Below are positions 40,404-58,705 of a stretch of 64,000 bases of DNA, piece after piece. The DNA is taken from contig CACMIW010000002.1 in NCBI GenBank assembly GCA_902613845.1, positions 62,001 through 126,000 on the forward strand. Direction: 5' to 3'. Source of the stretch: an uncultured Alphaproteobacteria bacterium (lineage in GTDB: Bacteria; Pseudomonadota; Alphaproteobacteria; HIMB59). Position 1 is the stretch's first letter; each line of letters starts with the position of its first letter. Below the pieces are notes generated by a model. The model was given only the letters and a program-made list of their open reading frames with translations. It did no database searches and was not told the origin of the DNA. The position numbers and the translations under genes are program-made.

Positions 40404-40405
40404 GG

Positions 40406-41239: not shown

Positions 41240-42090
41240 TTATATGTGATTTTTTTAATTGATTGATTTCTATCTAAAGTGATTAAAACATTACAATAAC
41301 TTGGTGTGGTTAATGACATCCATTTAGATAATTTTTGATAATATTTGATAAATTGGTGGAGCTTTTTTTTTAGACGAATATTACTCTTTAATGATCGAAG
41401 ACTTAATTCTTGTTTATATTTCCAATCAATTACAAATTCCCAATTTGGAAATTTTATAAATATATAATAATCAAATTTTTTAAAAATAATTTGGTAATCA
41501 ATCAAGGCACTATTATATGCAGTTCTCCAAATTAAATTAGAGTCATTCTTCTTTTCTAAGTCATTAATATTCATTTTTAAATATTTTATGTCGATTGGTT
41601 TTGAGCCAACACACCAACCCTCTAAAATTAGCAAATCTACTTTACTAATTTTTCTTTTATAATTTTTTTTGTTGTCAGTAACTTTATCGAAGACAGGAAT
41701 ATAGACTGGAAATTTCTTTTTCATTAAATTATTTATTACTTCATCAAGTAATTTTAAATTGTGAGTACCAGGTACACCTCTAGTTTCAAATAAATCTGTG
41801 TTGAATTTTCTTGCCAATTGTTTTCTTTGGAAAGATGATAGATAAAAATCGTCAATACTTAATATAACAACATTCTTTGAGTAAAATTTTAGAAAAAATT
41901 TTTTAATTAGAACTGATAAAGTAGATTTGCCTGAACCCTGGGAACCTGCAATCATAAGTGTTTTCTTATATTTTAGGTTAGATAATAATTTAAGATAATT
42001 ATCTTTTATTTCATTATGACTAACATTCTTGCCAGTTAATCTTTTCAGTGTATCTTGTATAAATTTTAGTTTAGCTGTAATTTCTGACAT
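41236..42090 (-). CDS. D-glycerate 3-kinase (plant-type GLYK family)
   Basis: 284 residues. P-loop 'MIAGSQGSGKSTLSVLIKKF', 'VVILSIDDFYLSSFQRKQLA', 'RGVPGTHNLKLLDEVI' and 'LLILEGWCVGSKPID' match plant and cyanobacterial glycerate kinases. It makes 3-phosphoglycerate from glycerate, the acceptor of GpgS and the product returned by the phosphorylase, closing the glucosylglycerate cycle. First gene of the four, overlapping the phosphatase by 4 bases; 104 bases lie between it and the ABC permease. Confidence 0.88.
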   Translation of the reverse strand: MSEITAKLKFIQDTLKRLTGKNVSHNEIKDNYLKLLSNLKYKKTLMIAGSQGSGKSTLSVLIKKFFLKFYSKNVVILSIDDFYLSSFQRKQLARKFNTDLFETRGVPGTHNLKLLDEVINNLMKKKFPVYIPVFDKVTDNKKNYKRKISKVDLLILEGWCVGSKPIDIKYLKMNINDLEKKNDSNLIWRTAYNSALIDYQIIFKKFDYYIFIKFPNWEFVIDWKYKQELSLRSLKSNIRLKKKLHQFIKYYQKLSKWMSLTTPSYCNVLITLDRNQSIKKITYK

Positions 42091-42194: not shown

Positions 42195-43076
42195 TTAACC
42201 TTTTACGGCTCCAGCTGTTAAACCACTGATTAATTGTCTTTGAAAAAACCATATAATCATAAATAAAGGAGCTGTCGCAGAAACAACACTTGATACAGCC
42301 CACATATAATTTCCGCCGTACTCTACTGTGCCGAGATAAGCATTAATTTTAGGAACCATTGTATAATTATGTTGATTAAGTAACAACGCGGTGACTGTAA
42401 AATCGTTATACGCCAACATCATACTAAATAAACCTGCGGTAACCACTCCAGGCCACATTACTGGCATAATAATATATCTAAATGCTTGAAAATATGAGCA
42501 ACCATCAATCAAAGCACTTTCATCTAATTCTTTTGGTACAGTTTTAAAAAAAGAGTACAGCAACCAAAGAGTAAATGGTTGGTTTATAGCTACCAAAACA
42601 ATTATTGTAGTAGGAAGTATTCCCCATATATTTAATTGGAAAAAAGGAAATAAGTAGCCCGATACTAAAGTAATGTGTGGCATAGCTCTGAAAACTAAAG
42701 CTATAATTAGAATATAAAAAGTATATTTAAATGTTGATCTAGACAAAGCATAAGCACCTAAAGTTCCAAGAAACAATGAAATTGATACTACTGATACAGT
42801 TACAATCATTGTATTCATAGTGGCTCTTCCAAATTCGCCTTCTGTCCATGACTCTAAATATGCTTTTATTGTTGTGGTGGCGCCTGTTTCAATCAAAGTA
42901 TTAAAACCACTTAAAGCATATGTCCAATCAGCTCTCGAGAAAAAATCTGCTTTTACTTTAAAAGAACCCCAAAGTGTCCAAATAAAGGGAAAAATTGATA
43001 TAGTAAGCCAAAACAATATAAAGATACTATTTACAATTATTATCTGTTTTGAATATTTATTAATTGTTTGATTCAT
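42195..43076 (-). CDS. ABC transporter permease, MalG-like (CUT1)
   Basis: 293 residues, six transmembrane helices; the EAA loop reads 'DESALIDGCSYFQAFRYIIMP', the CUT1 signature. Inner membrane half-permease for a polar solute such as a sugar or sugar-like osmolyte. Partner permease starts at the adjacent base and the binding protein follows, while the ATPase is at 54509. The glucosylglycerate genes lie downstream in the same direction. Confidence 0.93.
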   Translation of the reverse strand: MNQTINKYSKQIIIVNSIFILFWLTISIFPFIWTLWGSFKVKADFFSRADWTYALSGFNTLIETGATTTIKAYLESWTEGEFGRATMNTMIVTVSVVSISLFLGTLGAYALSRSTFKYTFYILIIALVFRAMPHITLVSGYLFPFFQLNIWGILPTTIIVLVAINQPFTLWLLYSFFKTVPKELDESALIDGCSYFQAFRYIIMPVMWPGVVTAGLFSMMLAYNDFTVTALLLNQHNYTMVPKINAYLGTVEYGGNYMWAVSSVVSATAPLFMIIWFFQRQLISGLTAGAVKG

Positions 43077-44105
43077 TTATCTTTCAGTTTTGAATTCTTT
43101 CCAAGTTCTAATTAGTACTGGGGTTAGTAAAAAAGCTATCCCTAATATAGTTAACATTGACGTAGCACCAGCAGAACCAAAAAGCATTTTATTTTCATTT
43201 CTTAAGTCTTGATAAATCATCCATGATAATGATTGAGCTACACCCTCAGCAGAAAAACCAATTATTGGTTCAAAAACTCTAAAATTATCCATCAAGCAAA
43301 TCAACATTATGAACGTAGCTACAGGGTATAAATGTGGTATAACAATAAAGCGAACACGTTCAAACCTCGACGCCCCATCAATGAAAGCAGCCTCTAGTGG
43401 ATCTTGTGGAACTGTCTGTAAAGCTGCATAAAAAACAACAAATGCAAAGGGTGTATTATGCCATATTCCATAAATGATCAGAGTTATCCAAGTTAAATTA
43501 CTCGAGGCCTTTAGAGAAAGATTTGGGTCATCAAAAAGAATTTGAATGCTTGCTCCAATTATTCCTTGGGAGTCAATCATCCAGAATAGTACTAAAGAAC
43601 CAATTAAAGGCGTAACTATCATTGGTAAAATTGTACCAAAAACAATAAATCCTTTTAATTTCTTTGCTAAAGTATTAACACTTAAAGCTACTATGAAACC
43701 TAAAACTATCACTGGTGGAGTTACAGCAAAACAAAATGTTAATGTAAACAATAATGCTTTATAAAAAGGGAGGTTTAAAACAGTATCTTTGAATTCACCT
43801 ATTGATGTCTTGTTATCCCATGCCTCTCTTATTTCATCAAAAGCTAAGTGATTTCTATCAGTATAAGTGCCAAAGCCATTAAATCTTCCTAATGGATTTT
43901 CAGCCTCTATTTTTTCTGTAGCCTCTACATCTACTCTAACATTTGTAGTGCACCCAAATGGATCACAATTTTCCACCTCCATAAGAACCTGTTCATTTTC
44001 AATATGAAGGGATTGAAAGAAACTAGAAACAATTGGTAAACCTATAAACAAAATCATTGCCAGAGCTGTAGGTAAAATAAACCAAAAGAAAGTTCTGTGA
44101 GGCAT
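43077..44105 (-). CDS. ABC transporter permease, MalF-like (CUT1)
   Basis: 342 residues. Transmembrane helix 1 is followed by a periplasmic loop with a cysteine pair (ENCDPFGCTTNVRVD), as in MalF-type subunits with an extended second domain. EAA loop 'LEAAFIDGASRFERVRFIVIP'. Membrane partner of the MalG-like permease; stop and start codons abut. Confidence 0.93.
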   Translation of the reverse strand: MPHRTFFWFILPTALAMILFIGLPIVSSFFQSLHIENEQVLMEVENCDPFGCTTNVRVDVEATEKIEAENPLGRFNGFGTYTDRNHLAFDEIREAWDNKTSIGEFKDTVLNLPFYKALLFTLTFCFAVTPPVIVLGFIVALSVNTLAKKLKGFIVFGTILPMIVTPLIGSLVLFWMIDSQGIIGASIQILFDDPNLSLKASSNLTWITLIIYGIWHNTPFAFVVFYAALQTVPQDPLEAAFIDGASRFERVRFIVIPHLYPVATFIMLICLMDNFRVFEPIIGFSAEGVAQSLSWMIYQDLRNENKMLFGSAGATSMLTILGIAFLLTPVLIRTWKEFKTER

Positions 44106-44175
44106 TATATTTTTTTTGTAAGAAAGTGTGGAACTTTACTAAGATCCACACTTAATAGAATTTATTAGCTTTGGA

Positions 44176-45411
44176 TTATAAAAAACCCTGCTCAGTAGCC
44201 TTAGCTATGTAAGCAGCTTCAACATCAGCTAATGCTTTTTCGGCTGACTCATTACCTTGAAGAAATTCCACAAGTTCTGTGCTTAAAGCACCGTGCATTA
44301 AGCTCATGTGTGGAAAACTAGGGTAAGGTGTTGTGCCTCTACTTGCTGCGTCAACAACAGGCCCTGCTGTATCACCAGGTGTATAACCTTTAATCAACCA
44401 AACAGTTGCATTTGGGTTGTTATTGGCTAAATCAGTTGATGAAGCGGCTCCAACTAAAGCTCTAAATGAGGCCTCTGCATTTTCATCAGATGTATTTGTA
44501 GCAATTGCAATTCCATCCCACCAAAGAGTGGTTGCAGGTTTACTACCACCGCCTACAGTTGGTGATGGGGCTAATCTTGTGTCAGCTTTGATATTTTGAT
44601 CACCTTCGTCATCAAGTAAAGAAGCTGCACCTGAGTTCCAAATATGCATTAATGCAACATTACCAGACTCCCATTCTTCTTTAACAGCGTTTGTATCTTG
44701 TGTTAAAAAGTCAGGATTACTTAACTCAGTTAATTTTTTAATCATATTCAGTGCTGCAACACCTTTTTCATTATTCACATTAGGTTGCGCGGAACCTGAT
44801 TTAAAAAACTCACCACCATGACCAAGATACATATTTACAAACTCTTGACCAAGATTCCATCCTGATTTGAAAGCTCCTGCATATGGATTTTCCATTACTC
44901 CAGCTGCTTTAATTTTTTCAGCAGCAGCAATTACTTCTTCATATGTAGAGGGAACAGCTATGCCTAAATCGTTAAGAATACTCTCTCTGTACCAAAGATG
45001 TTGTGCGTTAGCCATAAAAGCTACAGCATAAATCTTACCATCAATTGTAATCTTTTGATTATCATTTAAGTTTGACCCATATTTTGCAACTAAATCATCT
45101 AGTGGACGAATTAAACCGTCATTCATTAAAGGTGTAATTGAACCATTAGTAACTAATTTTGCAGAAAATTCAGCAGGGTTTGCTGATAAAGCAGCTACTT
45201 GTAATTTATTATGGTCAACAGAGTGCGTGACATTAAAATCCGCCTCTGGTCCAGCACAACTTTTTACTTCATCCATAAAAATTCTGTATGTAGTAAATTC
45301 GTTAGCTAAAATATTTATTGAACCGCTTGTTACACCACAAGGTGAATGGCTACCTGCAAAAACACTAGTAGATGCAAAAGAGATCAATAGAGCTATTATT
45401 AGTTTTTTCAT
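44176..45411 (-). CDS. ABC transporter periplasmic solute-binding protein
   Basis: 411 residues. Signal peptide MKKLIIALLISFASTSVFA, then a family-1 extracellular solute-binding protein with a MalE/UgpB-like two-lobe layout ('QHLWYRESILNDLGIAVPSTYEEVIAAAEKI', then 'AALMHIW'-type strands as 'VALMHIWNSGAASL'). It ends in 'YIAKATEQGFL'. Binds the imported solute, likely a carbohydrate or glycoside; the ligand cannot be told from sequence. First gene of the transporter set. Confidence 0.92.
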   Translation of the reverse strand: MKKLIIALLISFASTSVFAGSHSPCGVTSGSINILANEFTTYRIFMDEVKSCAGPEADFNVTHSVDHNKLQVAALSANPAEFSAKLVTNGSITPLMNDGLIRPLDDLVAKYGSNLNDNQKITIDGKIYAVAFMANAQHLWYRESILNDLGIAVPSTYEEVIAAAEKIKAAGVMENPYAGAFKSGWNLGQEFVNMYLGHGGEFFKSGSAQPNVNNEKGVAALNMIKKLTELSNPDFLTQDTNAVKEEWESGNVALMHIWNSGAASLLDDEGDQNIKADTRLAPSPTVGGGSKPATTLWWDGIAIATNTSDENAEASFRALVGAASSTDLANNNPNATVWLIKGYTPGDTAGPVVDAASRGTTPYPSFPHMSLMHGALSTELVEFLQGNESAEKALADVEAAYIAKATEQGFL

Positions 45412-45479
45412 TTATTTCCTCTTCTTTATGTTAATAAATTGTTAATTTTAATATACTAAATAAAATAAAATTTAAATGT

Positions 45480-45517
45480 AAGAGAAATGGTCGCGGAAAT
45501 TATTATGATATTCTCTT
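45480..45517 (-). promoter_or_regulatory. hairpin between SnoaL gene and binding-protein gene
   Basis: Inverted repeat AAGAGAA...TTCTCTT with a 24-base loop, lying just after the stop of the single-domain SnoaL gene and before the binding-protein gene. On the minus strand it is followed by T-rich DNA. It may act as a weak terminator or mRNA processing site that raises binding-protein expression over upstream genes. Confidence 0.35.
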
Positions 45518-45937
45518 TTATCTAAAACTAAGGCCCATTTGTTCGAAAACACCATGGTTATCGACCATCACATAATTATCCATAAATTTACCATTTTCTA
45601 TTGTCCAAAAATCAGAAAACTGCATTTTAATTGCCTTACCAGTTGGTTTTACACCTAAATAAGTTCCGCTATGAGTGCCAGTTAAATAACCTGTCGCACT
45701 TATCCAATTACCTTCTGCGACAACAATATCATTTTTTACATGATAGTCTGGAAACGCTTCATAAAAAGGTTTAAGAACCTTATATTTAAAATTTTCAATA
45801 CCGTGTATATCACCAAAACCTGGAGGTCCATGCCAAATCATATCATCATTCCAATATTTATGCTGTGCCTCTAAATCTTGTGCATTCAAGGCATCGTACA
45901 TATTTTGCAATAGTATTTTACTTTCATTTAAATTCAT
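45518..45937 (-). CDS. SnoaL-like protein, single domain
   Basis: 139 residues with a cystatin/NTF2-like alpha+beta barrel. The signature 'DMIWHGPPGFGDIHGIENF' and 'YLTGTHSGTYLGVKPTGKAI' are typical of SnoaL-like ester cyclase/polyketide-cyclase relatives. There is no polyketide synthase nearby. In this gene set it is one of five such proteins and probably an enzyme acting on a small metabolite. Its 5' end overlaps the next gene by 4 bases. Confidence 0.8.
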   Translation of the reverse strand: MNLNESKILLQNMYDALNAQDLEAQHKYWNDDMIWHGPPGFGDIHGIENFKYKVLKPFYEAFPDYHVKNDIVVAEGNWISATGYLTGTHSGTYLGVKPTGKAIKMQFSDFWTIENGKFMDNYVMVDNHGVFEQMGLSFR

Positions 45938-47073
45938 TTTTTTTCTCCTAAAATTTGTATTAAGATTGCCAATTCATTGAAACCAGTCCATTCTTTTGTG
46001 ATTTTATTATTTTTAATTTCCCATTGTGTAATGCCCCAAAGATAACACTCTTTATTAGATGGTTTTCCATAAATTCCATTTCCTTTGTGAGTTCCCACAG
46101 CGCCCCAACGAATTGATACTAAATAACCGTCTTTACTATTTCCCATCCAATATAAATCTTCAATACTTAGTGCAAGGTCAGGAAATGATGCAATTAATGA
46201 AATTATAAAATGTTTCAGCTTTGGTATTCCAACAAACTTTCGACTAGTTGATCCTTCAAATTTTATATTTTTTGTATAAACACTATCAATAGCAGAAAAA
46301 TTTCTTCTATTCCAAATAGTATCAAAAACCGCATGAACAAATTCTCTAATGTTTTTAATTTTATCAGGTATCGCGAAGCTTATGGGGTTTAACTTTTTAA
46401 TATTTCTTTTGGGTTTTGAATTTCTAAAATCAGGAGCAAATGGACCAATATTTCCTTTATTAGCAATTTGTTTTGCTACTTCATTTAAGTCTAAGCCTAA
46501 TTGTTTTATTAAACCTGCAGTATCATAAACAACATTTTCGTAATATATTTCATTATTTTTTGCTACACAGTTTGCAATACAGAACAACCTAACTGATTTA
46601 CCTGTTGGTTTGGCAAAATTGCTATAACCAGTGTTCGTGCCCGTAATTATAGTTCTGTGTGAAGTATGAAAACTAGTTTTGTCATCTCCTGCCCATATAA
46701 CCTCATCAGCATATAATCGAATATTTGGGAAGGCGTTGTTAGTATGAACTGTATCAGAGACTATTTTTTCAGATCCGAATTGTAATCCAAGTTCATCCCA
46801 AACACGACATTTTGGGCTATAAGTATCATATATATAACCAATATTTTTTTCTTCCCATATGCTGTAGGTAATTCTGACAATATAATCAATTATATTTTTA
46901 TATTGTTTTTCAAATCCCTGCATTGATTGAAATGGTAAATTTTTAGGGTTTGGATTTAAAGATTTAGCATTACCACCTCCGCCATAAGATTTAAGAGAGA
47001 TATCAAAATTTTTAGGCATATGATGATCTTTTAAAGGGATTGGTTTTAAATCTTTAATTAAAGTTTTTTTCAT
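45934..47073 (-). CDS. double SnoaL-like domain protein
   Basis: 379 residues. An N-terminal extension of about 45 residues precedes two NTF2-like halves: 'IIDYIVRITYSIWEEKNIGYI' begins the first and 'IREFVHAVFDTIWNRRNFSAI' the second. 'YDTAGLIKQLGLDLNEVAKQI' ends the first half. It is clearly paralogous to 50007-50978, which has the same 'ITYQIWENKD' opening and a matching linker. The fused halves may form one active pocket each. Function unknown. Confidence 0.75.
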   Translation of the reverse strand: MKKTLIKDLKPIPLKDHHMPKNFDISLKSYGGGGNAKSLNPNPKNLPFQSMQGFEKQYKNIIDYIVRITYSIWEEKNIGYIYDTYSPKCRVWDELGLQFGSEKIVSDTVHTNNAFPNIRLYADEVIWAGDDKTSFHTSHRTIITGTNTGYSNFAKPTGKSVRLFCIANCVAKNNEIYYENVVYDTAGLIKQLGLDLNEVAKQIANKGNIGPFAPDFRNSKPKRNIKKLNPISFAIPDKIKNIREFVHAVFDTIWNRRNFSAIDSVYTKNIKFEGSTSRKFVGIPKLKHFIISLIASFPDLALSIEDLYWMGNSKDGYLVSIRWGAVGTHKGNGIYGKPSNKECYLWGITQWEIKNNKITKEWTGFNELAILIQILGEKK

Positions 47074-47168
47074 AAATAAATTTACTAATACTATTAAATA
47101 AAATTCAAAGCAATAATTTTATATAAAATGAATATTATTATTTTTTCTTTTGTATTATAAATAGACTA

Positions 47169-48173
47169 ATGTCCGATTTTCAGAAAGAAAAATCATTAGT
47201 ATTAAATTTTATAAATGAAGTTGATAATGCTAATGAGGATAACTTAATTGAAATAATTTCTAAGTATACATCTAATAATTTTAATATGAAATGTACACAT
47301 CCTTTTAACGAGATAATAGGCATTGAAGAATTTGTAACAAAATTTTGGTTTCCTATAAAAAAATCATTTAAGCCTATCCAAAGAAGAATGGATATCTTTT
47401 ATGCTGGCACAAATTTAGTTGACAATCATTCTTCAAAATGGGTTGTGAATATGGGACATTTGCTTGGAAGTTTTAATTTTCCTTTTTTTGACATTCAACC
47501 AAATTTTAAGACTGTAATGTTATGGTATTGCGAGTTTTATAAAGTCGAGGATAACAAAATACAAGAAGGTGCCTTCTTTTTAGACATTTTAAAATTTATG
47601 CAACATTTAAATTTATCAGTTGTCCCGGAGTCAACGGGGATGATTGGCTTTAATCCGGGACCTAAAACACATCAGGGTTTATGCTTTGAAAAACAAAGTG
47701 AAATAGAAGGAAAGAAAACTCTTGAACTTATAATGAGAATGGCAAATCGATTAATTGGTGAGGGGATGAGGACAACAATTCCTGATTTACAAAAAGACTG
47801 GCATGAGGACATGATATGGTGGGGACCAGGGGGTATTGGTGCATCATATACCTATGATGGTTATTTAAAAGGTCACACGGGTCCTTTTGAGGATAATTTA
47901 GATTTTATAGATTTCTCTGGGCATATACTTGAAAACTCAGAGGGAAATTATGGTGGATGGTTTGGTTGGCCAAATTTAAAAATGAAACCAAAAGGTAACT
48001 ACATGGGTTTCAAACAAGACACAAATCTTATTGGGGAGATGAGAGTTGTTGACCTTTATAGAAGAGATGGAGATAAAATAGCAGAAAATTGGATATTAAT
48101 TGATCATCTTCATTTTTTAAAATGTGTGGGTATTGATTTACTTGAGAGAAATAAAAATGAAAATTCTAAATAA
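47169..48173 (+). CDS. double SnoaL-like domain protein
   Basis: 334 residues. First half (about 1-160) contains 'SKWVVNMGHLLGSFNFPFF'; the second has 'HEDMIWWGPGGIGASYTYDG' and 'GNYMGFKQDTNLIGEMRVVD'. It is paralogous to 52041-53150 (same 'WGP/YGPxGIG' and 'RVMDFY'-type blocks). Transcribed opposite to its neighbours and divergent from the 45934 gene (95 bases). Probably a metabolic enzyme of the same pathway. Confidence 0.75.
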   Translation: MSDFQKEKSLVLNFINEVDNANEDNLIEIISKYTSNNFNMKCTHPFNEIIGIEEFVTKFWFPIKKSFKPIQRRMDIFYAGTNLVDNHSSKWVVNMGHLLGSFNFPFFDIQPNFKTVMLWYCEFYKVEDNKIQEGAFFLDILKFMQHLNLSVVPESTGMIGFNPGPKTHQGLCFEKQSEIEGKKTLELIMRMANRLIGEGMRTTIPDLQKDWHEDMIWWGPGGIGASYTYDGYLKGHTGPFEDNLDFIDFSGHILENSEGNYGGWFGWPNLKMKPKGNYMGFKQDTNLIGEMRVVDLYRRDGDKIAENWILIDHLHFLKCVGIDLLERNKNENSK

Positions 48174-49296
48174 ATTTAGAAGCGAGTTTAGTACCCTCCA
48201 CTAGTGCAATAAGTTTTTCATAACAAATATTTTCATCAATTTTTCCAAAGCCTGCAAAAGTACTAAAGCCACAATCAGTTCCAGCCATTAATTGCTCTTT
48301 AGGCACTACTGTTGAATACTTAATTAATCTTTCAGCTACTACTTCTGGGTGTTCTACAAAATTAGATGTAGAGTCAATTACGCCAGGTACTAACACTTTA
48401 TCTTTTGGTAATTTAATTTCTTCAAAGACTTTCCACTCATGTGCATGTCGAGGATTGGATGACTCAATTAGAAAATATTTAATTTTTGATTTTAAAATTA
48501 TAGGTAATATTTTTTTTAGAGCTATATCATGAGTATGTGGCCCCTCATAATTACCCCAACAAATATGCATTCTAGTTTTTTCAATATCAACGTTTTTTAA
48601 GGCATGATTTAAACACTCAATTTGCATTTCAGCTTTTTTTAAAAAATCCTCCTCAGATAGATCTTTAAAATTCATATGCCTAGCTAGTGCTAAATCTGGA
48701 CAGTCTAATTGAACATGAATATTTGCATTAGTAATTTGTTCATACTCATTTGCCATAATACTAGAGAGTTTATTTAAATATTCATCATCGCTAGCGTAAA
48801 ATTTATTTGGCATAAAAACATTAATAACACCCGGTGATGCTGCATTCATAAATGCTTTTGCATGACCATACTTTTTTAAGGCGTTGCTAAAATTTTCAAT
48901 ATCATTTAACAAAGAAAAATTATCTTTTATTTTTAATTCATTGGTGCAACATGGTCTTGAATAAGTAGGTGTTCCTCCACTAATAGCTAACTTTTCCTTA
49001 TAGTCTGGAAAATCGTCTAAATCGGCAGGTGCTCTTCGTTCACTTTCTCCTGAAAAACCATCAATTCTATCCTTAATATAAGTAGCATAACTAATCTTGC
49101 TCATCTCACCGTCACTTATGAAATCTAACCCAACTTCAAGTTGTCTTTTTACAATTTGTTCAACATTTGAGCTTAAAATATTTCCAAATAATTTTTTGTT
49201 GTATTCTTCACCCTTATCCTTGGTAAAGAGATATTCTGATAGTTCTTTGGATCTTGGTAAGCTACCAACGTGTGTTGTCAAAATTTTAGATGCCAT
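48166..49296 (-). CDS. MetE-C-terminal-like zinc methyltransferase family protein
   Basis: 376 residues matching the C-terminal half of cobalamin-independent methionine synthase. All zinc ligands are visible: His and Cys in 'RMHICWGNYEGPH', Glu in 'FLIESSNPRHAHEW' and Cys in 'GTDCGFSTFAGFG'. It lacks the N-terminal tetrahydrofolate-binding half, like epoxyalkane:CoM transferase and several methyl-transfer relatives, so the substrate is a thiol rather than necessarily homocysteine. Convergent overlap of 8 bases with the SnoaL gene at 47169; a RraA gene follows upstream. Confidence 0.78.
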   Translation of the reverse strand: MASKILTTHVGSLPRSKELSEYLFTKDKGEEYNKKLFGNILSSNVEQIVKRQLEVGLDFISDGEMSKISYATYIKDRIDGFSGESERRAPADLDDFPDYKEKLAISGGTPTYSRPCCTNELKIKDNFSLLNDIENFSNALKKYGHAKAFMNAASPGVINVFMPNKFYASDDEYLNKLSSIMANEYEQITNANIHVQLDCPDLALARHMNFKDLSEEDFLKKAEMQIECLNHALKNVDIEKTRMHICWGNYEGPHTHDIALKKILPIILKSKIKYFLIESSNPRHAHEWKVFEEIKLPKDKVLVPGVIDSTSNFVEHPEVVAERLIKYSTVVPKEQLMAGTDCGFSTFAGFGKIDENICYEKLIALVEGTKLASKFI

Positions 49297-49301
49297 AATA
49301 A

Positions 49302-50003
49302 TTATGAATTGATAAATTTTTTATACTTATCTAAAAATTGTTTTTTCGAAAATTTTTTATTATTTCTAAAGAAATCAAAAATTATTTTTTCTTTTTTTAT
49401 CATTTTTTTAATAGCCAATGGTAATTCAATTAAAAAGTCTCTTTTTATTATAACAGCACCGTGTAAGTCTGCGTGAATAAGGTCGTCAGGTTTTACTTTC
49501 ATATTAAAAATATCAACATTGCAATTGATTTTATGAATTTGATTGTATCCATGCCCTACTCTTATTTCACCACTTAATATTTGAAACTTTCTATTTATCT
49601 CCTGTAAGTCCCTCATTGCTCCGTTTGTTATAGCTCCAACAAATCCAAAATTTAAATGTATAGATGCATTAAGTTCACCCCACCATGCACCAATTGTATT
49701 AGTCTTATCCTTATCCTCGATAACACAAATCTTTGGGTAGTTTCCTTCGAACATATACTCGTAATATTTATCTCTATTTTTAATTATATTTGTATTTTTC
49801 TTTTTTCTGGATGTAATAATCGCTGTTTTGGCAAAACCAATGATTGGTTTTAAACTTGGATTAATACAATGCATTGTTTTTTGTGTGTGTCCTTTTGATC
49901 GTAGAGTTGGATCTAATAATTCTAGTGAATTTGAGATAGTTGGAGTGTCATAATTTCTTATGTATTCAATAATTTTCTTTTCTCTTTTTGTTAGTAGTTT
50001 CAA
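49302..50003 (-). CDS. RraA/HMG-aldolase-family protein
   Basis: 233 residues. RraA-like alpha/beta/beta/alpha sandwich: 'DTPTISNSLELLDP', 'GAWWGELNASIHLNFGFVGAITNGAMRD' and 'VKPDDLIHADLHGAVII' match the class II pyruvate aldolase/4-hydroxy-4-methyl-2-oxoglutarate aldolase family, which also includes RraA regulators. The Asp/Arg pair in 'NGAMRDLQE' is the metal-dependent catalytic region. A C-C cleavage step is likely in this catabolic setting. Lys-rich C-terminus. Confidence 0.75.
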   Translation of the reverse strand: MKLLTKREKKIIEYIRNYDTPTISNSLELLDPTLRSKGHTQKTMHCINPSLKPIIGFAKTAIITSRKKKNTNIIKNRDKYYEYMFEGNYPKICVIEDKDKTNTIGAWWGELNASIHLNFGFVGAITNGAMRDLQEINRKFQILSGEIRVGHGYNQIHKINCNVDIFNMKVKPDDLIHADLHGAVIIKRDFLIELPLAIKKMIKKEKIIFDFFRNNKKFSKKQFLDKYKKFINS

Positions 50004-50006
50004 TTG

Positions 50007-50978
50007 TTATCCAGTTTTTAATAAAATTTGTTTCCAAATTGTTGTTTCATCAAATAGAACCCATTCATTTTTGATCCCTCTTGGACCAAATTCAGCCTGA
50101 GATATTCCCATTATATGAACATTCGCATTACTAGGATTAGAAAATAAACCAGGTCCTGAATGAATTCCCTCTAGTGACCATCTGATGGATGCCTTTTTAT
50201 ACTCATTTTTTTCCTCTAAATAGCATACATGTTCAACTTTAAAAATTGAATCCGGAAACATAGATCTTAGTGAAGACCAAAAACTCTTTACCTCATCTAC
50301 CCCTAATGCTTTCTTGCCTCCAGGCTGTTCTTGATTGACTGATCGATCATAAACTTTATCTATTATGTTAAAATTATTATTAAATATTTCCTTTAAAATG
50401 TTAGCATAATCTATTCCAGTATTATTTGTTGAGATCGGTATTTGAATATATTTTACTTCATGTGAGGTATCGTTATTAAAGGGAGCTGGGCATTTATCTT
50501 TACCGCCTTGATTTTCAATTACTTTTGCTGCATGTTTTTTAGGGTCAATATTTAACTGCCGAACAATAGCACCCTGGTCTCTTACAAGCCATTCATCATA
50601 AACCTGGTTATTCTTGCAAGCACAATCAGCTATTACTCGATACTTGAGAGTTTTACCAGTAGCTTTTCCATAAATACCATCATTTAAATGCGTCGCCTTA
50701 GATAAAATTCTATGTGATGATAAATATCCATGTTCTTCATTACCAATCCAAATAACATCTTCGCCTAATAACTGTCGATCTGGAAATTCATTCAAAGTGG
50801 CATAAGTAGCCTTCACTACAGCATCAGGGCCATATATTACACCGTCTGGAGATCTAACTGGAATACCCTCAGCATAATAGTCTCTAATTGACTCAACATC
50901 TTTATTTTCCCAAATTTGATATGTTATTTTAAATATATAATCTGGTAGATCTAAAAATTTATTATCAAAACCTTTCAT
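50007..50978 (-). CDS. double SnoaL-like domain protein
   Basis: 323 residues, two halves: first starting 'LPDYIFKITYQIWENKDVESI' and containing 'GTATGKTLKYRVIAD'-like strands, second 'DYANILKEIFNNNFNIIDKVYD' with 'WSLEGIHSGPGLFSNPSN'. Paralogue of the 45934-47073 gene: same domain order, linker 'AIVRQLNIDPKKHAAKVIENQGG' similar. 2 bases separate it from the cupin gene. Confidence 0.75.
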   Translation of the reverse strand: MKGFDNKFLDLPDYIFKITYQIWENKDVESIRDYYAEGIPVRSPDGVIYGPDAVVKATYATLNEFPDRQLLGEDVIWIGNEEHGYLSSHRILSKATHLNDGIYGKATGKTLKYRVIADCACKNNQVYDEWLVRDQGAIVRQLNIDPKKHAAKVIENQGGKDKCPAPFNNDTSHEVKYIQIPISTNNTGIDYANILKEIFNNNFNIIDKVYDRSVNQEQPGGKKALGVDEVKSFWSSLRSMFPDSIFKVEHVCYLEEKNEYKKASIRWSLEGIHSGPGLFSNPSNANVHIMGISQAEFGPRGIKNEWVLFDETTIWKQILLKTG

Positions 50979-50980
50979 TA

Positions 50981-51955
50981 TTAGAGGTTTTTTTGTCGTA
51001 TGATAAAGATACTTCCTTCTTGATTGCTAATATTTTTTAAACTTCTATTTGATCCTCTTGGAGACGAGAAAGAGTCGTTTGGTCCAATTGTGGTTTTTTG
51101 ATCATTGCAAGTTACTTCCCATTCACCCTCTAAACATAAATAAACTTCAGACTCTTTTAATGTGTACGGATGAATGTGAGCATTCTTACCTTTTAACATT
51201 GTCAAACCAAAGCCAGTATTATGGTCTATGTTTGGCTCAAAATCTTTGTTATGAACATTAAAATGGTCAAGGTAATTTAAAATTGAATTAGAGTTATAAT
51301 GCTCATCATCTTTTAAATATTTATCCTTATTTTCATAACGTATTACATATTTTTCAATTTCTTCAGAAGTGTAATGATCGAAAGACTCTAGATCTTTTTC
51401 TTTAATAGGTTCAAGGGCAGCTTTTCCGTCTGGTATTTTATTTTTATCAAGATCAATTAAGGTATTGTCATTTAATAAAACCATTCCAGACTCTTTTGCT
51501 TTTTCTAAAACTTTTGGTGTCCATGTTATCACACCCGGATCATTTTCTCCAAGGACAACAAATATTAATGCGTTTTCATCACTTACATTTTGAAATCCTC
51601 GAAACATATTAGTGGGAAATGAAGCAACATCTCCCTTGTTTAAAACTACTTCGCCCTCTTTACCATCTGTGCCCCAATAAAAGCGCCAAGAGCCTGAAAA
51701 TATCAAAAATACTTCTGCAGTCGTGTGGCTATGAAGTCCCGATCCGTTCATTGGAGCGGCACTTACTGCACCGATATTGAAGCCATGTTCTTCAGCTATT
51801 TTAACGTTTTGCTTGGTATCCTCACTCACTCCAGGGCCAACTATAGAATAATTCAGTCTATCTTGATGCCCTTTGAGCTTCCCTTCTACAAATGGAACTT
51901 TACTTGGAATTAGTTCATTAAACTTTACCAAACGACTGTTAATATCCTGCGTCAT
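50981..51955 (-). CDS. bicupin (two-domain cupin)
   Basis: 324 residues with two cupin barrels. The first has 'GSGLHSHTTAEVFLIFSGSW' and 'VVLNKGDVASFPTNMFRGFQN'; the second has 'KGKNAHIHPYTLKESEVYLCL' and 'TIGPNDSFSSPRGSNRS'. Metal-binding histidines are present in each motif 1, so it could be a dioxygenase or isomerase like gentisate dioxygenase-type bicupins; the substrate is unknown. First gene of a minus-strand run (cupin, SnoaL, RraA, MetE-like). Confidence 0.82.
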   Translation of the reverse strand: MTQDINSRLVKFNELIPSKVPFVEGKLKGHQDRLNYSIVGPGVSEDTKQNVKIAEEHGFNIGAVSAAPMNGSGLHSHTTAEVFLIFSGSWRFYWGTDGKEGEVVLNKGDVASFPTNMFRGFQNVSDENALIFVVLGENDPGVITWTPKVLEKAKESGMVLLNDNTLIDLDKNKIPDGKAALEPIKEKDLESFDHYTSEEIEKYVIRYENKDKYLKDDEHYNSNSILNYLDHFNVHNKDFEPNIDHNTGFGLTMLKGKNAHIHPYTLKESEVYLCLEGEWEVTCNDQKTTIGPNDSFSSPRGSNRSLKNISNQEGSIFIIRQKNL

Positions 51956-52040
51956 TAATTAGAATTTAAATTTCCTCATTTTGTTAAATATTATTTAAAT
52001 TATGAAGTTAATCAAAGTAATATTTATTTATATTAGATAG
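51956..52040. promoter_or_regulatory. divergent promoter region of the catabolic cluster
   Basis: 85 bases between the divergent cupin and SnoaL genes. They must hold promoters for both arms. AT-rich; I see no clear dyad or -35/-10 pair. Confidence 0.4.
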
Positions 52041-53150
52041 GTGAGGCAATATAACTTGAGCGAAATTAAAAATTTTGATACCGGTATTCCAATTAAAAGT
52101 GGGGCAAAAATTATAAATTTGGACCCTAAAGAAAATATATTAAATAAAAAAAAAATTAGAAATCTTCTCAAAAAAATTTCTGAGTCCAAAGATAGTGATT
52201 TAAGTCAAAATATAAAGAATGCATATCATGAAAATGCTGAAATCTATGCATTCCACCCTGTAAACCATATAAAAGGCATTGATGAAATAATGAATACCCT
52301 TTGGAAACCTTTACTGAATTCTTTTCCAGATTTAGAGAGAAGAGATAATTTAATAATTGGAGGGAGTTTTCAAGATAGGGTTTATGTCTCAACTGTTGGT
52401 CATTTAACTGGCACTTTTGTCAATCCATGGTTAGGAGTTCCCTCCAATGGTAAAACAATTCATTTACGAATTTGTGAAGTTCATCAAATAGAAAATGAAA
52501 AAATAATCAATTCTCATGTGTTAATTGATATAATGGATTTCATAAGGCAAGCAGGTTTTTGGCCTATTAATTCATCTTTGGGTATAGAAGAAATGTGGCC
52601 AGGACCTATTACCGGAGACGGAACAACTTTTGAAAACCTAGACTCTGATTTATCAGCTAGAACTCTTGATCAGGGTCTTACGATGCAAAGAAGTTTAGAT
52701 ATAAAACCAGAAACTGAGACTGGAGCTACTAAAGATAGTGTTAGACAGAAATTAATTAATCATCCTCAAAAAGATTATTGGCATCCGAAAATGATGTGGT
52801 ACGGACCCTGTGGTATAGGCACTGCTAGAGGTTTAAAAGGTTTTATTGAGCATCATCAGCTACCATTTAGATTAACATTTAAAGAAAGAAATTATTGGAA
52901 AATTGGTCATTACATTGAAATAGGTGATGGTAATTATTCAATGACAGGTGGTTGGCACAGTATTCAAGCAACACACGGTTCAAGTGATTGGCTAGGATAT
53001 GAACCTACTAATAAATTAGTTACTATGAGAGTAATGGATTTTTATTTACATAATGAGGGACTTATTAGGGAAAATTGGGTACCAATAGATATTGTCCATA
53101 TTTTATTTCAATTAGGAATAGATGTTCTCAAATTAGTTCATAAGAAATAA
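52041..53150 (+). CDS. double SnoaL-like domain protein
   Basis: 369 residues, GTG start. First half (about 35-185) includes '[20 protein letters not shown]' and '[18 protein letters not shown]'; second half '[18 protein letters not shown]' and '[19 protein letters not shown]'. Paralogue of 47169-48173. It begins the plus-strand operon with the dehydrogenase, ATPase, SDR and HAD genes (2 bases to the next start). Confidence 0.75.
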
Positions 53151-53152
53151 AA

Positions 53153-54478
53153 ATGACAGTTGAATTTATAAAAAAAAGCTTAAATGAAAAACAAAGAGCT
53201 GAAGAAAACAATAAAGTTAAAGCAGTAGTTGAGAACACTTTAAAGGAAATAGAATTAAAGGGAGATAGTTATGTAAGAGAATTATCAGAGAAATTTGATG
53301 AATACTCACCTAGTTCATTTAGATTATCTGAAGATGAAATAAGTAAATTAGTGGATGAAGTTTCTGATAATGACAAAGAGGATATTAGATTTGCACAAAA
53401 ACAAGTTCGATCGTTTGCTGAGGCACAATTAAAAAGTTTAAGTGAAATTGAAGTGGAAACTCAACCAGGTGTAATTCTTGGACATAAAAATATACCTGTT
53501 CAATCTGTTGGCTGTTATGTTCCTGCTGGAAAATTTCCAATGGTGGCATCAGCACATATGTCTGTAGTCACCGCTTCAGTTGCTGGAGTTCCTAGAATAA
53601 TAGCAACAACACCACCCTATCAAGGAAAAGCAAATGCTGCTGTAGTTACAGCTATGAAAATGGGAGGAGCTCATGAAATATACGTTTTAGGTGGAATGCA
53701 AGGTGTTGGAGCTATGGCTATTGGAACTGAGACCATAGAACCAGTAGATATGATTGTTGGTCCTGGAAACGCATATGTTGCAGAAGCAAAAAGGCAATTA
53801 TTCGGTAAGGTTGGGATTGATTTATTTGCCGGTCCTACCGAAACAATGATTATTTGCGATGATACTGTAGACGCAGAAATATGTGCTACTGATCTTCTTG
53901 GTCAAGCAGAGCACGGTTATAATTCCCCTGCAATAATGATTACTAATTCAAGAGATTTAGCAACAGAAACAATAAAAGAAATAGATAGACTGCTCAAAAT
54001 TTTACCAACAAGAGATACTGCTGGTGTTAGCTGGAAAGATTATGGTGAAATAATTTTATGTGAAAGTTATGATGAAATGTTAATGAAAGCTAATGAGATA
54101 GCTTCAGAGCATGTTCAAGTAATGACAGATAGAGATGAATGGTTTTTAAAAAATATGACATCTTATGGAGCACTTTTTTTGGGTGCAAGAACAAATGTTG
54201 CGAATGGAGATAAAGTAATAGGAACAAACCATACATTACCAACAAAAAAAGCTGGAAGATACACTGGTGGTTTATGGGTTGGTAAATTCATAAAGACTCA
54301 TACCTATCAAAAAATTACAACCGATGAAGCAGCTACAAAAATTGCAGAATATGGATCAAGATTATCATATTTAGAGGGTTTTATTGGTCACGCAGAACAA
54401 TGTAATGTTCGTGCAAGAAGATTTGGTGGTGTAAATGTAGAGTATGGAAAACCAATATCTAAGTTAAAAGATCAATAA
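53153..54478 (+). CDS. histidinol-dehydrogenase-family enzyme, sulfopropanediol 3-dehydrogenase type
   Basis: 441 residues, fold of HisD. '[20 protein letters not shown]', '[21 protein letters not shown]', '[16 protein letters not shown]' and '[13 protein letters not shown]' (metal Gln/His) plus catalytic Glu-His in '[11 protein letters not shown]' and '[20 protein letters not shown]' match HpsN-like dehydrogenases, where HisD has a different substrate loop. HpsN oxidises 2,3-dihydroxypropane-1-sulfonate to sulfolactate in two NAD-linked steps; here an alcohol-to-acid oxidation of a related polyol is inferred. No sulfolactate lyase is in the window. Confidence 0.82.
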
Positions 54479-54508
54479 TATGTTTTAGAGTTTATTTGGA
54501 TTAACAAA

Positions 54509-55567
54509 ATGGCTGAAATAGAATTACAATCAATAAATAAATATTATGGTAAAACTCATGTTATCAAAGATTTTTCTCTAAAAATTAAAGATCAGTCTTT
54601 TACAACACTCGTTGGTCCATCTGGTTGTGGAAAATCAACACTCTTAAGAATGATAGCTGGTCTAGAGGAAATTAATTCAGGAAGCATTCTTATAAATAAT
54701 AAATCTGTTAATGACTTACCACCAAGAGACAGAGGAATAGCTATGGTTTTCCAATCTTACGCTCTGTATCCACATATGACTGTATTTGAAAATATGGCTT
54801 TTGGATTAAAGATAGAAAAGAAATCAAAGGATGAGATAAATAGCAGAGTTAAAGAGGCAGCTAAAATATTACAAATCGAAGAATTGTTAGATAGAAAACC
54901 AAAACAATTATCAGGTGGGCAACGTCAACGTGTTGCAATAGGAAGAGCTATAACAAGAAAACCGAAAGTTTTTTTATTCGATGAACCTCTTTCGAACTTA
55001 GATGCTGCTTTAAGAGTTCAAATGAGGGTTGAGTTGGCAAAATTACATGAACAACTTGATGCAACAATGATATATGTAACTCATGATCAAACTGAGGCTA
55101 TGACACTATCAGACGAGATAGTCGTACTGGATGAGGGCAAGATTTCTCAATTAGGCAAACCTTTAGAATTATATAATAAACCAAATAACTTATTTGTTGC
55201 TGGTTTCATAGGTTCACCCAAAATGAATTTTATTCCAGCTAAATTTATTTCAAAAAACAAAAATGATATTGAAATAGAATTTTTAAATTCCAAATTTATA
55301 TTTAATTATGAAAATGATATAAATTTTAAAAAACAAGAACTCATTGTTGGTATAAGGCCTGAAAATATCCACGTAAGTTTTGACAATGATTACAACTGGC
55401 GTAGCAAAGCTTTTGTTGTTGAAAAACTTGGCTCAAGTACTTTTATCTACTTAGATAGTCTTGTTGAACCTGTGGTGGTTGAATGCGACGGTGATATTTC
55501 AGTTAAAACTGGTGATATTATAAATGTTAAATTTAACTTTGAAAAAATTATTCTTTTTAATAAATAA
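54509..55567 (+). CDS. ABC transporter ATPase (UgpC/MsmK/MalK type)
   Basis: 352 residues. Walker A 'GPSGCGKSTLLRM', signature 'LSGGQRQRVAIGRAI', Walker B 'VFLFDEPLSNLDAALR' and H-loop 'YVTHDQTEAMTLSD', followed by the CUT1 TOBE-type C-terminal domain ('GIRPENIHVSFD'). The only such ATPase in the window, so it probably powers the permeases at 42195-44105 although it sits within the dehydrogenase operon. Confidence 0.94.
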   Translation: MAEIELQSINKYYGKTHVIKDFSLKIKDQSFTTLVGPSGCGKSTLLRMIAGLEEINSGSILINNKSVNDLPPRDRGIAMVFQSYALYPHMTVFENMAFGLKIEKKSKDEINSRVKEAAKILQIEELLDRKPKQLSGGQRQRVAIGRAITRKPKVFLFDEPLSNLDAALRVQMRVELAKLHEQLDATMIYVTHDQTEAMTLSDEIVVLDEGKISQLGKPLELYNKPNNLFVAGFIGSPKMNFIPAKFISKNKNDIEIEFLNSKFIFNYENDINFKKQELIVGIRPENIHVSFDNDYNWRSKAFVVEKLGSSTFIYLDSLVEPVVVECDGDISVKTGDIINVKFNFEKIILFNK

Positions 55568-55590
55568 AAATTATAATTGTAAATGTATAT

Positions 55591-56358
55591 ATGTATTTGA
55601 AAAATTTTAATTTAAAAAATAAAACAGCACTTGTAACTGGAGCTGGTAAAGGTATCGGAAAAGCATGTGCTATTGCTTTGGCACAAGCAGGTGCAGATTT
55701 AATAATCATAAGTAGAACTAAAAAAGATTTATTGGGCGTGCAAAAAAAAATTATTTCATATAAAAGAAAATGTACATTTTTTGAATGTGATTTATTTGAT
55801 ATAGAGGAATTAAATACTGTTTTTAAAAAAATTAGAAAAATTGATATTCTTGTCAACAATGCAGGAACAAATCGTCCAGCGCATTTTACTAAAATTAAAA
55901 GAGAAGATATGGATTACATGATAGATCTTAATTTAAAAATAGCTTTTCATGTTGCCCAATTATCAATCAAGAAAATGTTGACTAACAAAAATAGAAAATC
56001 TATTGGGGGAAGCATAATTAATATGTCTTCTCAATTGGGGAAAGTTGGCGCGCCTAAAAGAAGCATCTATAATATGTCAAAATTTGGAATAGAAGGTTTA
56101 ACAAAAGGTATGGCTTTAGATTTAGCTAAAAAAAATATTCGTGTAAACTCTATTTGCCCAACCTTTGTAGAAACACCTATGGTTAAAAAATTTTTTAAAG
56201 ATAAAAAATTCAAAGATATGGTATTAAAAAATATACCTCTTGGTCGACTAGCTAAAGAAAGTGATATTGCTACTGCAACAGTTTATTTAGCTTCTAATGC
56301 ATCTTCAATGATTACAGGGACATCTTTAGTGATTGACGGTGGTTGGACAGCACAATAA
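55591..56358 (+). CDS. short-chain dehydrogenase/reductase
   Basis: 255 residues. 'TALVTGAGKGIGKACAIALA' (TGxxxGxG), 'VNNAGTNRPAHF', Ser in 'IINMSSQLGKV' and 'YNMSKFGIEGLTKGMALDLA' form a classical SDR with the SYK triad; ends 'TGTSLVIDGGWTAQ'. Oxidoreductase of a secondary alcohol or ketone; follows the ATPase in the operon. Confidence 0.92.
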   Translation: MYLKNFNLKNKTALVTGAGKGIGKACAIALAQAGADLIIISRTKKDLLGVQKKIISYKRKCTFFECDLFDIEELNTVFKKIRKIDILVNNAGTNRPAHFTKIKREDMDYMIDLNLKIAFHVAQLSIKKMLTNKNRKSIGGSIINMSSQLGKVGAPKRSIYNMSKFGIEGLTKGMALDLAKKNIRVNSICPTFVETPMVKKFFKDKKFKDMVLKNIPLGRLAKESDIATATVYLASNASSMITGTSLVIDGGWTAQ

Positions 56359-56391
56359 GAATTATTTTAAATAATTTTTTTTAGTAATTTG

Positions 56392-57045
56392 ATGAAAGCA
56401 GTCATATTTGGTTCAATTGGGACCTTAGTTGAAACATCAGATATTCAAAGGCAATCTTTTAATAAAGCTTTCAAAACATTAGGTTTAGATTGGTATTGGA
56501 GTAAAGACAATTATAAGAATTTACTAAAAAAATCAGGTGGAGCTAACAGAGTCAATTACTTTTCTAATTTAAAGAAAAAATTTGTTGACTCAAAAAAAGT
56601 AAGAGAAATTAAAACTCTTTTTTTTAATAATTATTTAAAAAATAATTATATTAATCCTCGTGATGGAGTTTTAGAGGTAATTGAATACGCTAAGTTACAA
56701 AATATTAAAATTGGTCTAGCGTCAACAACTTCTATTGAAAATATTGATGCTATTTTTAAGACTCTTAATAAAAAAATAGAAAAGAAAGATTTTGATTTTA
56801 TTGGAAACAATGAATTAATAAAAAAAGTAAAACCTGAACCAGATATTTATATTAAGGCTCTTAATGATTTAGGCGTAAACCGAGATGAATGTATCGCAAT
56901 CGAAGATTCACTTGATAGTGCATTATCAGCTCTTAGGGCTAAAGTTGAATGTATTGCATTTCCAGGACTATTTCATGTGGACGATGATTTCAGTTATTGT
57001 AAAAAATGTTTGAATAAATTAGATATTTCAATTTTTGAAAATTGA
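56392..57045 (+). CDS. HAD-superfamily protein lacking the catalytic aspartates
   Basis: 217 residues from ATG 56392 (a TTG one codon earlier is possible). HAD-IA (CbbY/phosphoglucomutase-like) fold: cap domain, 'IGLASTTSIENIDAIF' (motif II), 'KVKPEPDIYIKALNDLGVN' (Lys motif III) and 'AIEDSLDSALSALRAKV' (motif IV). Motif I, normally FDxDGT, reads 'IFGSIGTLVETSD', so neither the Asp nucleophile nor the general acid is present. It cannot use the usual phospho-aspartate mechanism. The change may mark a new use of the fold; last gene of the plus-strand operon. Confidence 0.8.
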   Translation: MKAVIFGSIGTLVETSDIQRQSFNKAFKTLGLDWYWSKDNYKNLLKKSGGANRVNYFSNLKKKFVDSKKVREIKTLFFNNYLKNNYINPRDGVLEVIEYAKLQNIKIGLASTTSIENIDAIFKTLNKKIEKKDFDFIGNNELIKKVKPEPDIYIKALNDLGVNRDECIAIEDSLDSALSALRAKVECIAFPGLFHVDDDFSYCKKCLNKLDISIFEN

Positions 57046-57417: not shown

Positions 57418-58446
57418 ATGACAAATTCGAAAGTCATAGGAGTAATTGGCTTAGGGAATGCCGGATTACCAATCTTAAATAATTTAAATAAAACAAAAAA
57501 ATATCAATTGATTGCTTATGATATTGATGAACATAAACTAAATCTTCTTCCTGAAAATATTTCAATAGCATCTTCTATTAAAGAGTTAGCTCAAAAATGT
57601 CATGCCACCATAACTTGTTTGCCAAAACCTGAACACGTCTTACAAGCTGTTGAAGGAAAAGAAGGGTTATTGGAAAATGCCTCGCCAGGAATGGTTTGGA
57701 TTGATACTTCTACTACTGACTTTAAGCAATCTCAAGAATTAGAAAAAAAAGCATTAACCAATAATGTATCCATGTTAGAGGCTACTTTGACAGGAGGGGT
57801 TCATGCATTGCAAAATAATAATATGGTTAGTTTAGCAGGAGGCAATAAAGAGATTTTTAATAAGTGGAAAGAATTAATACAAGATGCAATTGGTGAGGTT
57901 GTTGTGCTTTGTGGAGATATCGGAGCAGGTGCGATTGCGAAGGTAGTTTCTAACATGCTTGCTTTCACTAATATGGTGGCAGCTTCGGAATGTATGATGA
58001 TTGCAAAAAAAGCAGGCTTAGACTTAGAAAACTTTTTTGATGCCATCAGAGTTTCTGCTGGTAATTCATTTGCATGGGAAACAGTTGTGCCACATATTTT
58101 TAATCAAAAATATGAAGCGGGTTTCACAATGGACTTAGCATGTAAGGATATGAACTTATGTTATTTATTAGGTGAGCATTTAAAAATTCCATTAGATTTA
58201 CATATGGAAGTGAAAAAAAAGATGGAGAAAGCCAAATCTCAATATGGAGATAATGAAGGATGTTATGTATATCCACGAACTCTTGAAGATGAATTAAATG
58301 AGCCTTTATCTCTAAATGGATGGGATAATTGGGGTTATGACATAGAGGTAGTAGATGGTTCAATAGTTGTTAAACACAAAAATCGGCCTGATTCTAAACA
58401 CCCTCAATACAACACACAGTCACAAAAGTTAGACAGAGGCGTCTAA
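57418..58446 (+). CDS. beta-hydroxyacid dehydrogenase-family oxidoreductase
   Basis: 342 residues. NAD-binding 'GVIGLGNAGLPILNNLN' (GxGxxG form) and 'VVSNMLAFTNMVAASECMMI' / 'FTMDLACKDMNLCYLLGEHL' of the 3-hydroxyisobutyrate/tartronate-semialdehyde reductase family; about 45 residues longer than usual at the C-terminus ('YDIEVVDGSIVVKHKNRPDS'). The catalytic Lys is in 'GAIAKVVSN' (K of KxxxN). A GGGGGAAG ribosome site precedes it, stronger than is common here. Lies between the stub gene and the tRNA att site. Confidence 0.85.
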   Translation: MTNSKVIGVIGLGNAGLPILNNLNKTKKYQLIAYDIDEHKLNLLPENISIASSIKELAQKCHATITCLPKPEHVLQAVEGKEGLLENASPGMVWIDTSTTDFKQSQELEKKALTNNVSMLEATLTGGVHALQNNNMVSLAGGNKEIFNKWKELIQDAIGEVVVLCGDIGAGAIAKVVSNMLAFTNMVAASECMMIAKKAGLDLENFFDAIRVSAGNSFAWETVVPHIFNQKYEAGFTMDLACKDMNLCYLLGEHLKIPLDLHMEVKKKMEKAKSQYGDNEGCYVYPRTLEDELNEPLSLNGWDNWGYDIEVVDGSIVVKHKNRPDSKHPQYNTQSQKLDRGV

Positions 58447-58563: not shown

Positions 58564-58705
58564 CGGGATTTCAAGCTCTACTACCTTTTACTAATATGCA
58601 CTACTATCTAAGATATTAAATGGTTTTTAAGAATTTTCAAAAGACTAAAATAGTCACCATTATGATTAATTTTGAATTTTTTTGTTACCTTTTTGCTACC
58701 TTGTA

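Follow-up and report, generated by a model that had tools for sequence, protein, structure and literature searches.

The window analysed here, the whole stretch of 64,000 nucleotides (30% GC), comes from contig CACMIW010000002.1 of an uncultured alphaproteobacterium of the HIMB59 lineage whose draft genome amounts to 1.27 Mb in 28 contigs, and at its positions 42195-57045 there is a gene cluster that probably imports and degrades a sugar-sized compound by a route for which searchable papers hold no description. The list of open reading frames and their translations gives 15 intact genes, and the Pfam and NCBIfam profile searches by which families were assigned to the window's proteins bear out the gene content of an original prediction, including its one single and four double SnoaL proteins. 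That prediction also saw two divergent arms. The divergence stands, though the actual layout is one of four transcription units around the short regions at 47074-47168 and 51956-52040, namely CUP-D3-RRAA-METE and D1-S1-SBP-TMD1-TMD2 on the minus strand and D2 and D4-HISD-ATP-SDR-HAD on the plus strand, with a spacing of 0-106 bp inside units and with D2 as a lone plus-strand gene sitting between the two minus-strand units. With their short names in brackets, the features are:

42195..43076, minus: CUT1 ABC permease 2 (TMD2), PF00528; in SAR11 and Rhodobacteraceae it is kept alongside the other cluster genes
43077..44105, minus: CUT1 ABC permease 1 (TMD1), PF00528
44176..45411, minus: extracellular solute-binding protein, sugar type (SBP), PF01547/PF13416
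45518..45937, minus: single SnoaL protein (S1), PF07366 at 86.6 bits
45934..47073, minus: tandem SnoaL protein (D1), PF07366 at 78 bits, two stretches
47074..47168, no strand: divergent intergenic region of 95 bp between D1 and D2
47169..48173, plus: tandem SnoaL protein (D2), PF07366 at 39 bits, two stretches
48166..49296, minus: MetE C-terminal-like zinc protein (METE), PF01717
49302..50003, minus: putative class II aldolase of RraA/HMG-CHA type (RRAA), PF03737, with an E-X20-R-D motif
50007..50978, minus: tandem SnoaL protein (D3), the most widely shared marker, PF07366 at 73 bits, two stretches
50981..51955, minus: bicupin (CUP), PF07883, two stretches
51956..52040, no strand: divergent intergenic region of 85 bp between CUP and D4
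52041..53150, plus: tandem SnoaL protein (D4), PF07366 at 65 bits, two stretches
53153..54478, plus: HisD-family Zn/NAD alcohol dehydrogenase of G[KR][FY]P type (HISD), PF00815 at 443 bits, motif GKFPM
54509..55567, plus: ABC ATPase of MalK/UgpC type (ATP), NF008653 at 467.8 bits (cut-off 432)
55591..56358, plus: SDR oxidoreductase (SDR), PF13561 at 198 bits
56389..57045, plus: HAD-fold protein without nucleophilic Asp (HAD), PF13419 at 82 bits

Recurrence of the gene set

Do such unlike genes belong together? Co-occurrence across genomes had been set beforehand as the test on which the proposal of one coherent system could fall, and it did not fall: within the genus the genes are present together or not at all, and the set recurs in distant taxa. 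Among 52 genomes of the genus D4 is present in 31, and METE (27 of the 52) and HISD orthologues (29 of the 52) are confined to genomes that have D4, the few D4-positive ones in which METE or HISD is missing being incomplete drafts. The D4-negative genomes, one of them 99% complete and in a single contig, have an orthologue of neither, and their HisD is at most ~30% identical to HISD. Genomes of the genus that keep the cluster are of 0.7-1.4 Mb.

Farther afield, a D4 match is found in 28 of the 385 genomes of an even sample of the class and a D3 profile match in 23 of the 399 of a sample of the phylum, and relatives of D3 in GTDB genomes amount to at least 588 loci. Among the matches listed, the nearest relatives that bear a name are single-cell genomes from marine sources, with the labels uncultured Alphaproteobacteria and Pelagibacteraceae. 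Neighbourhood maps, drawn for about 130 loci, have the same families, in altered order and strand, in Alphaproteobacteria, SAR11, Rhodobacteraceae, Acidimicrobiia, Chromatiales, Erwiniaceae, Deinococcus and Priestia, with a LacI regulator usually present; Amidohydro_2 and alpha/beta hydrolase genes also occur in relatives' clusters, and the habitats of the carriers are marine, sponge-associated, soil and leaf. All 11 SAR11 loci carry D4, CUP, D3, METE, SBP, TMD1, TMD2 and the pseudo-HAD gene, with a HisD-family gene nearby. Rhodobacteraceae-like loci have D3, CUP and HISD in 18 cases of 18, LacI, SDR, S1 and D4 in 17, METE in 15 and RRAA in 13, and the Acidimicrobiia loci have the importer, D2 and D3 in 6/6, the remainder being partial. 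In the Erwiniaceae version, on a Pantoea dispersa plasmid, an MFS protein replaces the transporter and there are two HisD genes; the Priestia version has MFS genes, and that of Deinococcus retains ABC genes. One cultured carrier is Ruegeria conchae M340, whose copy lies at about 237-255 kb of NZ_CP081104. The cluster genes belong together, and their recurrence is not a matter of chance.

Two records deserve separate mention. In the cluster copy of locus L092 (G007:C1 254-274 kb) HISD and METE are interrupted by numerous in-frame stops, from decay or from assembly errors, and L101, which is recorded as a contig of Euryarchaeota archaeon ARS96, has this alphaproteobacterial cluster and is likely mislabelled or misbinned.

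The enzymes and their catalytic residues

PF07366 scores above cut-off in S1, D1, D2, D3 and D4, and the nine domains that these proteins contain are all that the profile finds in the 1.27 Mb genome. AlphaFold2 modelling, put forward earlier as a check, gave two SnoaL/NTF2-like folds in tandem both for D3 (predicted local distance difference test score, pLDDT, 95; predicted template modelling score, pTM, 0.91) and for D4 (pLDDT 92.5, pTM 0.91). D1 matches the D3 profile, at 225.6 bits, and D2 matches D4 with 31% identity. At the position of the catalytic Asp in the domain alignment, which we take to correspond to that of a known SnoaL enzyme, eight of the nine domains have Asp and the C-terminal domain of D1 has Asn. 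Invariant in D3 are His89, Arg90, Asp118, Trp130, Arg133 and Asp134 of the first domain and Trp234, His250, Arg266, Trp267, His273 and Asp310 of the second, so that both sites are constrained and polar-looking, a set of residues that suggests polar substrates. These tandem-SnoaL families have no solved structure, and no description of them was found in the literature searched.

Given that SnoaL is best known from polyketide biosynthesis, does the cluster build or modify a small molecule and not degrade one? Foldseek searches with the D3 model return alignments of single domains only, to the polyketide cyclases and hydroxylases IdmH, AclR, SnoaL2 and SnoaL, with which the cluster proteins share the fold of each domain and the catalytic-type Asp. 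However, the cluster proteins are tandem, of about 320-380 residues, and their neighbours are an importer and catabolic-type enzymes, among them an aldolase; a polyketide synthase is absent from the cluster genes, as had been pointed out originally, so that this is no aromatic polyketide cluster. With the D4 model the search reaches Lsd19 and MonBI/MonBII (PDB 3rga, 9kw6), epoxide hydrolases of biosynthetic context which also have two SnoaL/KSI-like domains per chain or complex, but the domain arrangement is incompatible and they do not superpose with D4 (TM-score about 0.3, root-mean-square deviation about 16-18 Å). Further, neither a synthase nor a ligase nor an exporter could be identified among the cluster genes, relatives have a LacI gene besides the importer, the aldolase, where present, is of RraA or of HpcH type and never both, and the whole is retained in genomes as small as 0.7-1.4 Mb, which together leave biosynthesis highly improbable.

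HISD had been called an HpsN-like dehydrogenase. It is of the HisD family and HpsN (PDB 8v35) is its closest solved relative, at 376 bits, with the HisD fold, a full-length alignment and an expected Zn/NAD 4-electron oxidation in common, such being the mechanism of HpsN and HisD (PMC11382572), but the His specific to HpsN is missing. In HpsN the motif is GRY[AS]H, with its His126 binding the sulfonate, and in HisD it is GSAPL (PMC11382572). The window's HISD has GKFPM and its cluster homologues G[KR][FY]P[MLI]; the clade that they form (support 100/98) reads G[KR][FY]P in each of its 43 rows, spans Alpha- and Gammaproteobacteria, Acidimicrobiia and Deinococcus, and is split from HpsN-type sequences at 100/100. 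The additional HisD that Erwiniaceae, Priestia and Deinococcus possess is of a second and more distant P-motif type. Nor is HISD the histidine-synthesis HisD of its genome, there being a better PF00815 match at G000:C3:86901-88109, apart from which HISD groups with HpsN-like proteins in a tree whose deep root is unsure because canonical HisD is represented by a single row, on a long branch. Judged by motif and tree, HISD is not HpsN and forms a clade of its own.

Could the cluster still be a variant of the dihydroxypropanesulfonate (DHPS) pathway, with HISD acting as HpsN on DHPS or a DHPS conjugate? The kinship to HpsN speaks for it, as do the retention of Asp352/Lys353 in HISD and the occurrence, in nine SAR11 clusters, of a GRYAH gene of true HpsN type near D4. 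However, that gene is separated from D4 by a second transporter and is either a functional replacement or a mere neighbour, HISD itself has gene neighbours other than those of HpsN, and Pfam and NCBIfam revealed no gene for a sulfo-lyase in the cluster. The loss of the residue by which HpsN recognises the sulfonate disfavours a sulfonated substrate for HISD, contrary to what had been proposed, and on motif and phylogeny DHPS catabolism via HISD was rejected; that the cluster serves DHPS in some form is very unlikely. The catalytic pairs of HpsN, Glu318-His319 and Asp352-Lys353, are both kept in HISD ([SY]EH and GDK are conserved), from which a two-step oxidation of an alcohol to an acid should be expected, of a substrate other than DHPS.

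The HisD slot is not always filled in the same way. A GRYNN sequence occupies it in 7 clusters; in L088, L093, L115, L123 and L132 a homologue of this type adjoins D4 in place of the GKFPM type, an apparent exchange of paralogues. In SAR11 loci such as L137, L141 and L151, what separates the HpsN-type gene from D4 is one further gene and another ABC transporter of sugar type, unrelated to the first.

In RRAA the D/E-X20-R-D motif is present as E110-X20-R131-D132, invariant in 13 sequences, and its context GxxWGE-X20-RD is kept in 13/13. The wording of the motif is reportedly that of work by Wang, Mazurkewich and Seah. One or other of two aldolase metal/catalytic motifs is reported for the majority of RraA homologues, and RraA-fold proteins with such motifs are considered to be mainly class II pyruvate aldolases (PMC5065237). 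With the HMG/CHA aldolase (LigK/ProA), of the RraA family (PMC5065237), RRAA shares fold and motif, though it lies far under the NCBIfam equivalog cut-offs and its cluster is without aromatic ring-cleavage genes. The best evidence for the type of reaction is an exchange between two unrelated aldolase families: in Priestia, Deinococcus, Erwiniaceae and some others an HpcH/HpaI aldolase (PF03328) replaces RRAA, and in the neighbourhood tally RRAA is in 26 loci, HpcH in 6 and both in none. Motif and exchange strengthen the earlier proposal of a cleavage by the aldolase, and they support RRAA as a predicted class II aldolase that would cleave a 4-hydroxy-2-oxo acid.

The zinc ligands of MetE (H-x-C, E, C) are invariant in 28 METE sequences as H244, C246, E278 and C342, and with residue roles assigned by analogy to MetE a methyl or alkyl transfer to a thiol is a possible function. 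Solved MetE-like proteins that are without the N-terminal half (PDB 1ypx, 3rpd) have the same catalytic fold and zinc ligands, but METE is a family of its own, about 46 bits from them. The first cupin of CUP keeps HxHxxxE, with its C-terminal His gone. As for the HAD protein named originally, the fold was correct, but FGSIGT replaces the DxD of motif I, and FGSIGT or a near variant is found in 6/6 HAD-fold homologues. Phosphatase or dehalogenase chemistry is unlikely for want of the nucleophilic Asp; the protein may be structural or regulatory. In SAR11 it is retained with the cluster despite the loss of the catalytic Asp in all homologues seen.

Importer, regulator and flanking DNA

By Pfam and NCBIfam the binding protein, the two permeases and the MalK/UgpC-type ATPase make up a CUT1 ABC importer. 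The solved relatives of the binding protein, trehalose/maltose-type ones at 48 bits, are too distant for its specificity to be read from them. There is no regulator gene in the window's cluster, relatives have a LacI gene inside theirs, and a search of this genome, run without a positive control, found no close homologue of that gene; an Rfam search of 37000-60800 found no riboswitch.

Immediately downstream, 104 bp from the transporter and in its orientation, is a glucosylglycerate-type set at 37466-42090, consisting of a sucrose/glucosylglycerate-phosphorylase-like GH13 protein, a glucosyl-3-phosphoglycerate synthase (353 bits), an MPGP-like phosphatase and a kinase. These genes were rejected as members of the conserved set, the kinase adjoining the cluster in only 3 near relatives, as was the 3-hydroxyisobutyrate-dehydrogenase-like gene at 57418-58446, which is not beside the cluster in any tallied relative. 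A tyrosine recombinase is encoded at 58682-59794, 1.6 kb past the cluster end, and the flank to the right of HAD is variable, as the near-identical relative L080 differs there.

A predicted catabolic route

What might such a set of enzymes do? The importer, the oxidoreductases and the aldolase uphold the earlier view of a coherent catabolic cluster, and its catabolic character follows from the importer, the LacI gene of relatives and the RraA/HpcH exchange. We give a probability of about 0.6 to the proposal that the cluster is a complete catabolic pathway for an imported, polyhydroxylated compound of the size of a sugar. From the gene content, its recurrence, the catalytic residues kept and lost and the aldolase exchange, all read from sequences, we infer an order of reactions and every substrate and product. 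The CUT1 system would bring in the compound, and the tandem SnoaL enzymes would act by acid/base chemistry on a keto- or imino-compound that is polar and probably cyclic, so as to open, hydrolyse, dehydrate or isomerise it. HISD, with NAD, would take a CH(OH or NH)-CH2OH end through a 4-electron oxidation to the carboxylate, SDR would oxidise or reduce a second centre, and the cupin, with an alpha/beta hydrolase in relatives, would open or hydrolyse the product. RRAA would then split a 4-hydroxy-2-oxo acid into two acids, one of them pyruvate or oxaloacetate, in marine versions METE would make a thiol the acceptor of a methyl or alkyl group, and in relatives a LacI-type repressor would govern the set.

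Several things weigh against so complete a pathway. SAR11 clusters are without SDR, aldolase or S1, some versions are without METE, RRAA/HpcH or SDR in the stretch seen, and a Vibrio pelagius plasmid locus (L075) has the importer and four tandem SnoaL genes alone, beside sarcosine oxidase and purU genes; the path is then either finished by other genes, or the cluster in its core does less than full catabolism. The roles of the enzymes are assigned by family, with substrate and reactions predicted. Dehydratase/decarboxylase activity is on record for one member of the RraA family (PMC8563752), so that proteins like RRAA may also serve such reactions.

A narrower form of this proposal would have a methylated sugar or sugar acid degraded non-phosphorylatively, by dehydrogenase, lactonase, dehydratase and aldolase, with the tandem SnoaLs replacing dehydratase and isomerase. 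SDR plus an RraA or HpcH aldolase is the classical end of non-phosphorylative sugar routes, and both are present here; the CUT1 importer and the LacI regulator fit, and the Amidohydro_2 and alpha/beta hydrolase genes of relatives suit lactonases. However, the core is without a kinase and without a dehydratase of enolase, IlvD or DHDPS type, one dehydration hardly explains four tandem SnoaLs, and a HisD-type 4-electron oxidase is unusual in such routes, all in all a rather unlikely fit.

On chemical fit, mycosporines and the mycosporine-like amino acids, which serve algae, corals, cyanobacteria and fungi as UV sunscreens, were considered as substrates. They carry a ring C(OH)-CH2OH, an enol methyl ether and enaminone or imine carbons, which would suit HISD, METE and the tandem SnoaLs respectively. 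Oxidation of the CH2OH to COOH and cleavage of the ring would yield 4-carboxy-4-hydroxy-2-oxoadipate, a known substrate of the RraA-type CHA aldolase. Versions of the cluster from leaf and soil have two HISD genes, and in some of them an amidase or C-N hydrolase is encoded close by; these would suit the fungal mycosporine-glutaminol, but METE is absent from the leaf versions; that mycosporines are what the cluster degrades is decidedly unlikely.

For the catabolism of a polyhydroxylated, sugar-sized compound by such a gene set no described pathway was found in the literature searched, in which most subscription papers were out of reach, and here too the original prediction holds. The enzyme families are known ones; the novelty, by that literature, lies in the pathway, in the subgroup to which HISD belongs and in the families of tandem SnoaLs. 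HISD represents a new group of HisD-family dehydrogenases with a diagnostic motif, for which public records currently say histidinol dehydrogenase. Those 588 or more genome loci that encode D3 include ones of SAR11 and other streamlined surface-ocean bacteria, which keep few accessory pathways, and retention of the cluster there points to its substrate as a component of marine dissolved organic matter that is common but has gone unrecognised.

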